The notes under the pieces: model-generated
The model's input: only the letters and a program-made list of their open reading frames with translations
The model's database searches: none
What the model was told of the DNA's origin: nothing
Made by a program: the position numbers and the translations under genes
Shown: piece after piece, positions 19,192-40,974 of the stretch
How positions within the stretch are numbered: the first letter of the stretch is position 1
How the letters are laid out: each line of letters opens with the position of its first letter
Assembly (NCBI GenBank): GCA_016930275.1
Contig: JAFGHA010000096.1
Span: 1-64,000 of the forward strand
Length of the DNA: 64,000 nucleotides
Reading direction: 5' to 3'
Origin: Chitinispirillaceae bacterium
Lineage (GTDB): Bacteria > Fibrobacterota > Chitinivibrionia > Chitinivibrionales > Chitinispirillaceae

Positions 19192-20754
19192 ATGCAAAGT
19201 GAAAGTATCCAGCAGCAACTCAGTTTCAATGGTCTGACGGTCCTGTATCAGGTTGCCCATCTTCTCGCTTCGGGTAAGGAGCTTGAAGAGACCATGATGG
19301 AGATTCTGGGGATACTGGAGGAGCTGGCCGGTATGAAACGCGGTATGATCGCGATACTCAGTCCGGACAATAACGAGGTTGCGATCGATGTCGCACGGGG
19401 GCTTTCCGAAGATGAGATTCGTAAGGGAAAGTACCGTCCGGGAGAAGGTATTACGGGTAAGGTCGTTGCCACAGGAAGACCCATCGCGGTTCCGTCGCTC
19501 AACGAGGAACCACAGTTTCTCGATAAAACCGGTGCCCGGAAAAATATCCAGATTTCAAGTCTGGCGTTTCTCTGTGTACCGGTGAAAACGGGTACCTCCG
19601 TTATCGGGGCTCTCTCCGCTGACCGGGTAGCGGTTGAAGATGCGGTGACCCTCGATGGTGAGTTACGGTTTCTTGAAGCTGTTGCTGATCTTATCGCTCA
19701 GACCGTGGATGTGCGCAGGCAGCAGTACAACCGTATCCATTCTCTTGAGCAGGAAAATCTCGAACTCAGAAAAAATCTTGAAAACCGCGGGAAACCCGAT
19801 CAGATGATCGGCAACAGTTCCTCCATGCGCAATGTATACCGCCAGATCGCCCAGGTCGCTCCTTCGAGTACTAGTGTACTGATCCGTGGTGAGACCGGTA
19901 CCGGCAAGGAGTTAGTGGCACGGGCCATCCATCAGAAGAGTATGGTTGCAGCCGGACCGTTCATTCCGGTCAACTGTGCGGCACTTCCCGAGTCGCTGCT
20001 CGAAAGTGAGCTTTTCGGCCATGAGAAGGGATCGTTTACCGGAGCAACTTCGAAACGGATCGGTCGTTTCGAAGCGGCCGACAATGGCACACTTTTTCTC
20101 GACGAGATCGGCGAGATGTCACCGGGTGCCCAGAGTCGTCTCCTGCGCGCAATTCAGGAAAAAGAATTCCAGAGGGTAGGGGGGAACGATTCGATCCGGG
20201 TGAATGTGCGGCTCATCTGCGCCACCAACCGGAATCTCGAAGTTGATGTGCGGGAAGGCCGGTTCAGGGAAGACCTCTACTATCGCATTAACGTTTTCAC
20301 CATTATCCTGCCGCCGTTGCGCGAGCGTGGCGCCGACGTACTCATGCTGGCGGATTACTTCGTCAAGAAATACTCACAGCTGCATTACAAAAAGGTCGAA
20401 CGGATCTCGACACCGGCTATCGACATGCTCAGTGCCTACCACTGGCCGGGCAACGTGCGGGAACTCGAAAACGTGATCGAACGGTCGACGCTCGTTACTA
20501 ACGGCAACGTGCTCGAGGGACACGATCTGCCGCCCACCATACAGCTCAAGGAACCGATTCTCAAGGGTAAACGCAACGACTCTTTCGAGAACATGGTCGC
20601 CGCCTACGAGAAGGAACTTATCGTCGATGCCCTCAAGGATACCGAAGGGAACCAGAGCGAAGCCGCCCGGCTGCTCGGTACCACGAAACGGATTATCCAG
20701 TACAAGATCGATAAGCTCGGGATCGATTTTAAACGGTATCGCAAGCAGGTGTGA
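19192..20754 (+). CDS. Sigma-54-dependent transcriptional activator (GAF-AAA+-Fis, NifA-like)
   Basis: A 520-residue enhancer-binding protein. The GAF sensor domain covers about 25-180, followed by a short coiled linker. The AAA+ domain shows Walker A 'GETGTGKE', the sigma-54 contact loop 'GSFTGA' (a GAFTGA variant), Walker B '[10 protein letters not shown]' and the 'GNVREL' motif. The end is a Fis-type helix-turn-helix containing '[11 protein letters not shown]' and '[10 protein letters not shown]'. The ATG at 19192, nine bases after GGAAGG, was preferred over the TTG at 19168. There is no receiver domain, so control comes through the GAF ligand or a partner, as in NifA/FhlA. A consensus sigma-54 promoter lies 416 bases downstream, before flgB, making this the obvious candidate activator of the flagellar operon. 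Confidence 0.9.
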
Positions 20755-39437: not shown

Positions 39438-40595
39438 TTAATACGCACCACTTGTGGTCAATAGAGATATCGGTGTCATAAATACCAGTTTCAGATCAAG
39501 TAAAAAAGATCGTTTCCTGATGTAATTGATGTCCATACGTACCATATTATCGAAATCCGTCCTGCTGCGGCCGTACACCTGCCAGGTTCCCGTTATACCC
39601 GGTTTCACCTTCATCACTCTGTGTGTGTGCCACCGGTTGTACGCTTCAACCTCATATGCTATAGGGGGGCGTGGTCCGACTACCGACATGTCACCAAGAA
39701 GAACATTGATGAATTGTGGCAGTTCATCGATACTGGTTTTTCTGATGAACCTTCCAATTTTTGTGATACGGGGATCATTGGTCATTTTATGCACTTTTTC
39801 TCCGTTTGCAGATGCAGCAACGTTTTTTCCACTGATGAAATCCGCAACGAACTGCCGGTGTATGGATATATCACAACCGGTATGCATCGATCGAAATTTG
39901 AAAATTCTGAAGGGGCGCCCTTTCAGACCGACACGTTCCTGAATGTAAAAAACAGGCCCTTTTGAAGTGAGTTTGATAAGAAGGCCGACCACAAGAAAAA
40001 GCGGTGACATAACAATTAGTACCAGGAGAGAAAAGCAGATATCGAAACTTCTCTTCATCGTAGCATATGTTTTCTGCCGGATTCGTTCCCCGGATGAATA
40101 GAGACTCTCTGACAGATTGTCGGATGGAAGATTTATATCTGCATCGGTATGCGGACGCGGAAACTGCATATATACAATCGACGCCAGGGACCGTTGCTGT
40201 ACAGAAAGAAGCGGATGCAGATTTTGTCTCATTCTGTTCGCGAAGAAATCGCCGTTCTGAGTGGCGTCCGCATAAATCACTCCGTACACCTTGGTTTTTT
40301 TATACCAGCCCAGTACATCGGTCTGGCGGACTGAATGGGTAAGAGCATCGTGCAGCTCTTGTACATTGATGGTTTGCAGATTTTTAAGAAGCGGTTCGAT
40401 ATCGATGAGGAGAAGAATGAAATGATTTCCGGTACGTTCCGATCTGCTGCATTCCCGGAAGAAATACTCACGGAACATTTCTTCTGAAAGAAAACGCTTA
40501 TCCGATGTTTCGGATAGTGATGAGTAATAAAGGTCAATCGGGCATTCAGGGCGGGTACGCGAGAATTTCAGATTTAATTTTGGTGTTCCTATCAT
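39438..40595 (-). CDS. Undecaprenyl-phosphate sugar phosphotransferase with GGDEF-like N-terminal domain
   Basis: A 385-residue protein. The C-terminal half (about 185-385) is a bacterial sugar transferase of the WcaJ/PglC type. It has one membrane helix ('FDICFSLLVLIVMSPLFLV'), then 'GPVFYIQERVGLKGRPF', 'FKFRSM', 'TSIDELPQFINVLLGDMS', 'VGPRPP' and 'VKPGITGTWQV'. It would start polymer synthesis by putting a sugar phosphate on undecaprenyl phosphate. Instead of the usual CoA-binding or multi-helix front, residues 30-150 look like a degenerate nucleotidyl-cyclase fold: 'RSERTGNHFILLLIDIEP' and 'VRQTDVLGWY' resemble the GGDEF helix and strand, without GGDEF itself. The ATG at 40595 follows GGGAGG. 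A sigma-54 promoter lies 56 bases upstream. Confidence 0.88.
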   Translation of the reverse strand: MIGTPKLNLKFSRTRPECPIDLYYSSLSETSDKRFLSEEMFREYFFRECSRSERTGNHFILLLIDIEPLLKNLQTINVQELHDALTHSVRQTDVLGWYKKTKVYGVIYADATQNGDFFANRMRQNLHPLLSVQQRSLASIVYMQFPRPHTDADINLPSDNLSESLYSSGERIRQKTYATMKRSFDICFSLLVLIVMSPLFLVVGLLIKLTSKGPVFYIQERVGLKGRPFRIFKFRSMHTGCDISIHRQFVADFISGKNVAASANGEKVHKMTNDPRITKIGRFIRKTSIDELPQFINVLLGDMSVVGPRPPIAYEVEAYNRWHTHRVMKVKPGITGTWQVYGRSRTDFDNMVRMDINYIRKRSFLLDLKLVFMTPISLLTTSGAY

Positions 40596-40650
40596 AGTTT
40601 CCTCCCGTAAGGGTAATGATGATGTGTTCAAATTTTATTCATCTTGTAAT

Positions 40651-40666
40651 GGCAAGTGGTGTGCCA
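40651..40666 (-). promoter_or_regulatory. Sigma-54 promoter of the sugar transferase gene
   Basis: On the minus strand the sequence reads TGGCAC-ACCAC-TTGCC, an exact match to the -24 half and nearly exact to the -12 half (TTGCA/T) of the sigma-54 consensus, with correct GG-N10-GC spacing. The start site would be near 40640, leaving a 45-base leader with the GGGAGG ribosome site. Confidence 0.82.
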
Positions 40667-40717
40667 AATTTCAGTGAAAATGAAAACTGCCGATTTTTAC
40701 AGAATTTCAGTGAAAAT
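40667..40717. repeat. 15-bp direct repeat next to the -24 element
   Basis: AATTTCAGTGAAAAT occurs at 40667-40681 and again at 40703-40717, a 36-base period (a little over three helical turns), directly abutting the promoter. Each copy is partly palindromic (TTTCAGTGAAA). It may bind a co-regulator or a DNA-bending protein. Confidence 0.6.
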
Positions 40718-40768
40718 CCAACAATAGTGGATCAATAACGTTGTTCTTCGAGAGGGTAATCAATTATA

Positions 40769-40784
40769 GTCGCAAAAATGCGAC
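40769..40784. promoter_or_regulatory. Palindromic upstream activator site 1
   Basis: GTCGCAAAAATGCGAC, a dyad of GTCGCA and TGCGAC with four bases between, about 105 bases upstream of the -24 element of the sugar transferase promoter. The same palindrome occurs twice more in this gap. Its distance and symmetry fit an enhancer-binding-protein site. Confidence 0.65.
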
Positions 40785-40929
40785 ACTGCCGATTTCTCAC
40801 TGATTCAGGGCATTTCAGGGGATATAAACGAACCTGATTAGGCAATTTTATTACAGAAAACGGATAGAGACATTGAATGGGAATTGTATCTCTAATAAAT
40901 TCAATGTTATATGATACTCATTGGTCAGA

Positions 40930-40974
40930 GTCGCAAAAATGCGACACAAAATACCGCTGTCGCATTTTTGCGAC
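40930..40974. promoter_or_regulatory. Paired palindromic upstream activator sites 2 and 3
   Basis: Two further GTCGCA-N4-TGCGAC palindromes, at 40930-40945 (A-rich centre) and 40959-40974 (T-rich centre), have centres 29 bases apart and opposite orientation. They lie about 265-310 bases upstream of the sugar transferase -24 box. Because the copies are reverse complements, the whole 45-base block could also form a long hairpin. Confidence 0.65.

Follow-up and report, generated by a model that had tools for sequence, protein, structure and literature searches.

The window examined here, a 64,000-nucleotide stretch of contig JAFGHA010000096.1 from the metagenome-assembled genome of an uncultured Chitinispirillaceae bacterium (phylum Fibrobacterota), encodes on its minus strand a 385-aa initiating sugar transferase (39438 to 40595), an assignment drawn from Pfam, TIGRFAM, and our alignment A3. 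Its C-terminal half matches Bac_transf (PF02397) at 223 bits; against TIGR03025 it reaches 286.8 bits, below the cut-off of 295.55, in a match that begins at model position 181. In this family the N-terminal ~170 aa resemble GGDEF without the active-site motif (A3: ERKRSERS..PF.L.L.DI...REIDIKGWYKK..IGIIYTE) and look like a degenerate GGDEF domain; the Pfam GGDEF model gave a weak match (E 0.04) in just 1 of 12 members.

Upstream of this gene, at 40651 to 40666 on the minus strand, lies a sigma-54-type -24/-12 promoter, TGGCAC-ACCAC-TTGCC, assigned by direct reading, consensus score, and comparison with related promoters. A previous sequence-only reading had reported this element, and it holds up: all 11 of the 11 scored consensus positions are matched, and GG-N10-GC, in the form TGGCAC...TTGCW, is present exactly. 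From the -24/-12 geometry, transcription is predicted to start about 12 nt past the -12 C, at 40641 (minus). Given the ATG at 40595, preceded by a ribosome-binding site, GGAGG, at 40601 to 40605 (minus), the predicted 5′ untranslated region would therefore be about 46 nt. The 15-bp direct repeat that had been noted next to the promoter is also there, AATTTCAGTGAAAAT, with a first copy adjoining the -24 box (40667 to 40681) and a second at 40703 to 40717; it was not found when looked for beside the other promoters of the set described below. An 11-mer, ACTGCCGATTT, occurs twice in the window, near the 15-bp repeat (40686) and directly after the first palindrome (40785). No strict IHF consensus was found between the palindromes and the promoter.

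Farther upstream are three copies of GTCGCA-N4-TGCGAC, to which we assign no strand. The proximal one (palindrome 1, GTCGCAAAAATGCGAC) is at 40769 to 40784; the other two form a distal pair, 29 bp apart, at 40930 to 40945 (palindrome 2, again GTCGCAAAAATGCGAC) and 40959 to 40974 (palindrome 3, GTCGCATTTTTGCGAC). All three rest on direct reading and on shuffles, the first also on the genome count and the distal two on a search for pairs. Whole-window shuffles gave an expectation of 0.01 copies, and none of 100 shuffles reached three, so that the three copies previously described are confirmed. One of them had been called inverted; since the arms are a perfect palindrome, this applies to the AAAA/TTTT spacer alone.

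Sigma-54 promoters need enhancer-binding proteins at palindromic sites 80 to 300 bases upstream. The window had been said to show exactly this layout, and a promoter with upstream sites is indeed what it has. The palindrome centres, however, are at about -136, -297, and -326 relative to the predicted start at ~40641, which puts the distal pair at or slightly past the limit, and more remote from the start than the pairs at the other loci.

One could instead take the palindromes for operators of a sigma-70 promoter. A sigma-70-like TCGGCA-18-TATAAT at 40792 to 40763 overlaps palindrome 1, with its -10-like TATAAT abutting the site. Such matches are nonetheless no commoner than chance (5 found versus 5.5 expected in shuffles), and what the other loci show at a defined distance is a sigma-54-like element. 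We consider this explanation highly improbable.

The palindrome in the genome and the phylum

Across the 5.9 Mb of the genome (316 contigs), GTCGCA-N4-TGCGAC occurs 14 times, versus 0 for a reversed-pattern control and about 1 expected by scaling of the window shuffle value. Thirteen of the 14 copies are intergenic, spread over eight loci, and in 12 the spacer is AAAA or TTTT. The copy on contig C7 lies in a coding region and has an unrelated spacer, as chance would give. Allowing up to three mismatches added just three real-looking sites, all beside known ones (C24:8995, C176:1727, and C176:1865); the total was otherwise equal to the control level. A two-mismatch site on C37 was dropped, as it falls in a coding region. 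Among 168 genomes of the phylum, the palindrome is enriched in this genus only (14, 8, and 14 copies); related genera and families have a few. A full-text literature search for the site word returned noise only.

The sites are mostly paired, 29 bp from centre to centre, or else 20 or 30 bp; the difference between the 20-bp and the 29- to 30-bp spacing is about one helical turn. The genomes of the genus have 4, 4, and 5 pairs at 29 bp (up to three mismatches), versus 0 in controls. Outside it, three further genera of this family have one or two and genome G035 has one, and the same search elsewhere in the phylum, including Fibrobacteraceae, found none.

Most sites have a TTGGCAY-N5-TTGN element 50 to 180 bp away toward the gene, and beyond it come a ribosome site and a start codon. 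The simpler pattern TGGCA-N6-TTG is found near the sites at 14 of 23 loci, compared with 0.6% of positions drawn at random from this DNA. Of the nine loci without it, one has its site in coding sequence and two are at contig ends; most of the others have, by eye, a variant -24/-12 box, such as TGGAAC or CGGCAT at -24. In a set of 29 promoters, chosen partly by pattern, the unselected positions following TGGCA are Y in all 29 and then R in 26, matching the sigma-54 consensus. Twelve of these promoters have the C of the -12 GC; the other 17 lack it, keeping TTG with A or T as the next base. The genome has one rpoN (a single PF04552 match), with an intact RpoN box, ARRTVAKYRE.

It had been suggested that the same word may mark a regulon elsewhere in the genome, unless it proved to be a generic repeat scattered without linkage to sigma-54 promoters. 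The genome scan supports the suggestion, with 13 of 14 copies outside genes and most beside sigma-54-like promoters. The rarity of the copies, their linkage to promoters, and the same layout at the same genes in relatives thus argue for a regulon rather than a scattered repeat. Each palindrome has a 6-bp stem and an A/T loop, and at some loci T-rich DNA comes next, which could also suggest a bidirectional intrinsic terminator or a dispersed repeat; one terminator-like match begins at 40959. Yet the palindromes lack a consistent T-run, and several pairs lie between divergent genes (L016, L020, and L021), where no terminator is needed. They are rare, with 14 copies, and stand beside promoters in positions conserved across genera. 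This genomic context makes the terminator or repeat explanation extremely improbable, and we reject it.

The same word also appears in Rhizobiaceae and related bacteria, where two or three copies stand exactly 23 bp apart (L089, L104, L113, L122, L124, L125, L130, and L132), mostly with no sigma-54-like element nearby. This is apparently a different use of the word.

Genes downstream of the sites

Recurrence of the layout at orthologous genes was computed for several families. At the transferase homologs of G035 and G036, half-degenerate sites are paired at a spacing of 30 bp, with a -24/-12 element about 94 to 123 bp further; most other homologs are without the pair and -24/-12 layout. A CsgG/LpoB-like protein (PF03783, PF13036) has a site and promoter in G000 (this genome), G034, G035, G036, G037, and G039, spanning six genera and four families. 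Twenty-five further CsgG/LpoB-like homolog loci, many of them paralogs, were examined; 24 are without the layout, the exception being the G000 gene itself.

A family of 180-aa proteins (alignments A1 and A2) occurs in 14 of the 40 genomes from the order, and all 14 carry the candidate activator P0001 described below. It has no Pfam match; member-wise Pfam scans and a PDB profile search gave nothing significant, and single-sequence structure prediction reached a pLDDT of 37. A sigma-54-like element lies upstream of the gene in 12 of the 13 cases with enough upstream DNA and is weak in G018. In nine genomes the gene has paired sites 29 to 32 bp apart, some of them degenerate, such as GTCGTTCTATTGCAAA/GTCGTGATATTGCAAC in G031.

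The targets also include lipoprotein orthologs (L021, L041, and L052) and two families of ~250-aa proteins, one at L022, L039, L044, and L045 and the other at L046 and L050. The gene behind the promoter on C134 (L018:1002-1304) resembles the L046 family but is interrupted by an in-frame stop about 63 codons in. Same-genus relatives carry tandem arrays of 20- to 21-bp repeats, differing in their units, immediately upstream of enhancer sites, in most cases those of the ~250-aa gene families (L042:2701-3046, L043:70-144, L044:3083-3202, L045:2765-3000, L046:3113-3376, and L050:1-120); several contigs end at such arrays.

Finally, fliD lies downstream of one promoter (L019), but behind a terminator-like hairpin, GGGGATCGGACGCTTCACCCGGTCCCCGTTTTTTTT, that stands between the enhancer and sigma-54 promoter and the gene (L019:1848-2013). 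It is possibly a regulon member; the hairpin could mean that a short sigma-54-dependent RNA is made. The single match of an Rfam search of three loci fell far short of the gathering score, and there was none for this hairpin. Control of exopolysaccharide or glycan production, as the sequence-only reading proposed, agrees with the place of the transferase in the regulon, but the set is broader, taking in the CsgG/LpoB-like protein, the lipoprotein, uncharacterised families, and possibly fliD.

A candidate activator

The genome encodes about 25 enhancer-binding proteins. In a scan of species genomes for adjacent palindrome pairs, four loci outside Fibrobacterota, in Desulfobulbaceae and Hydrogenedentes (L090, L100, L101, and L112), had the pair beside an NtrC-type enhancer-binding protein and/or Mrp/FeMo-cluster-like (orp) genes, and the enhancer-binding proteins read at these pairs have the recognition helix HKSTLFRK. 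The proteins of G000 closest to this type are P0001 (contig C168, HKATLFRK) and P0002 (C270, HRSTLFRK), both with GAFTDA and about 52% identical over the AAA+ and helix-turn-helix (HTH) domains. In two Clostridia metagenome-assembled genomes (L092 and L116), the same palindrome pair stands beside a -24/-12 element and an enhancer-binding protein whose helix is HRSVIYRK; at L092 the genes that follow are metabolic.

P0001 (C168:16915-19533, minus) has four PAS domains, an AAA+ domain with GAFTDA (PF00158, 221.5 bits), and a Fis-type HTH, LGIHKATLFRK (PF02954, 32.6 bits), and is thus of the NtrC type. In G000 it is unlinked to any palindrome site, and it is not beside orp genes, its neighbours being an MltG-like gene and others. 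In G035 and G036, its ortholog is about 5 kb from the site-bearing 180-aa gene. Of the 40 genomes from the order, 19 have an ortholog; two or three of these assignments rest on partial or divergent matches. The palindrome is present in 11 of the 19 P0001-bearing genomes versus 1 of the 21 others (P = 0.0003), and for P0001 and the 180-aa family the figures are 14/14 versus 0/21 (Fisher P = 5e-7), P values that are optimistic, since the genomes are related and not independent. The exact palindrome is missing in eight P0001-bearing genomes, although at the 180-aa gene four of them (G030, G031, G037, and G038) carry a degenerate pair or a single site. The one palindrome of G002, which is without P0001, lies inside an open reading frame.

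The regulon might be real and yet be served by another of the ~25 enhancer-binding proteins, likeliest a P0002-type paralog or the activator encoded at 19192 to 20754 in the window. P0002 is a paralog of P0001 with a very similar helix (LGIHRSTLFRK), and in other phyla it is orp-type enhancer-binding proteins that adjoin GTCGCA palindromes. P0002 itself adjoins orp (Mrp/FeMo-cluster-like) genes. However, the P0002-type genes of G000, G022, and G039 have GTTGCA-N4-TGCAAC beside them, not GTCGCA, which leaves P0001 for GTCGCA, and the 180-aa target occurs solely in the company of P0001. The 19192 to 20754 protein, singled out earlier for testing, is not favoured: it has a GAF domain and a recognition helix unrelated to the HKSTLFRK type. 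An activator other than P0001 therefore seems unlikely to us. The dedicated NtrC-family regulator that had been postulated, and not seen nearby, can now be proposed from comparative genomics, on another contig; P0001 is the best candidate for this role.

We thus read the region as the promoter and enhancer of a gene that belongs to a sigma-54 regulon, whose activator is most likely P0001, a reading to which we would give a probability of about 0.83 on the present comparisons. The co-occurrence with P0001 was computed, as were the sites and promoters; binding, activation, the PAS-sensed signal, and the glycan output we infer. We imagine that sigma-54 RNA polymerase would sit on TGGCAC-N5-TTGCC, not able to open the promoter alone, and that a dedicated enhancer-binding protein would bind as dimers to the GTCGCA-N4-TGCGAC palindromes. 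A spacing of two or three helical turns between two sites may help assembly of the active oligomer, which would loop to the promoter so that transferase transcription starts; the enzyme would then begin a surface glycan or exopolysaccharide. The same activator would switch on about seven other promoters, for the CsgG/LpoB-like protein, the lipoprotein, the 180-aa family, and the ~250-aa families. P0001, in this role, would act at a distance in response to a signal sensed by its PAS domains.

Relation to known systems

DVU2106 of Desulfovibrio vulgaris is a characterised activator of the orp (orange protein complex) operons, with palindromic sites at -88 and -131 upstream of -24/-12 promoters (PMC3897727, PMC4641369); it is a one-component sigma-54 activator with GAFTDA (PMC4641369). 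P0001 is like it in being one-component, in GAFTDA, and in the palindromic sites proposed for it upstream of -24/-12 elements; for the sites, the likeness is one of layout. Homologous Mrp/FeMo-cluster-like genes adjoin P0002, whereas P0001 differs in its four PAS domains, its location away from orp genes, and its association with surface/glycan genes and uncharacterised ones. P0001 is a paralog of DVU2106-type orp-operon activators.

The PrsK/PrsR system of PEP-CTERM/exosortase bacteria likewise combines sigma-54 promoters, an upstream motif, and an NtrC-like regulator with surface- or exopolysaccharide-associated genes, and in Aquincola the prsK-prsR genes have an associated sugar transferase gene (PMC1569441, PMC9850573). 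The PrsR enhancer motif, though, ends in TTTACA (PMC1569441), unlike GTCGCA-N4-TGCGAC, and in P0001 PAS domains replace the receiver. Against the PrsR model TIGR02915, P0001 scores 312.8 bits, below the cut-off of 502.6. Motif and score together rule out a PrsR/PEP-CTERM regulon. In D. vulgaris, sigma-54 is linked to the cell exterior, exopolysaccharide, and flagella (PMC4641369); this link is shared, but phylum and activators differ. Fibrobacterota are absent from the sigma-54 regulon survey of PMC12316311. Sigma-54, an NtrC-type activator, and paired enhancers are parts of known kinds; as far as could be checked, the set of regulator, sites, and targets is not described in the literature found and is new for the phylum.

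One can envision, tentatively and at slightly less than even odds, that duplication of an orp-type (DVU2106-like) activator within the Chitinispirillaceae lineage and its order gave a copy that, with added PAS sensors, was recruited to run a regulon of surface-glycan and "orphan" proteins. This copy would have kept GTCGCA-N4-TGCGAC while the orp-type paralogs of the clade are on GTTGCA-N4-TGCAAC, and many of its promoters would tolerate loss of the -12 C. If so, the 180-aa family, found only in P0001 genomes, would be the core output of the pathway. P0001 and P0002, with GTCGCA and GTTGCA, respectively, also amount to a natural experiment on specificity change in the Fis-type recognition helices of enhancer-binding proteins. 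Our findings provide a testable set of regulator, sites, and targets for a phylum in which gene regulation has received little study, and they predict control of a glycan-initiating enzyme together with several surface or uncharacterised families, the 180-aa family among them.
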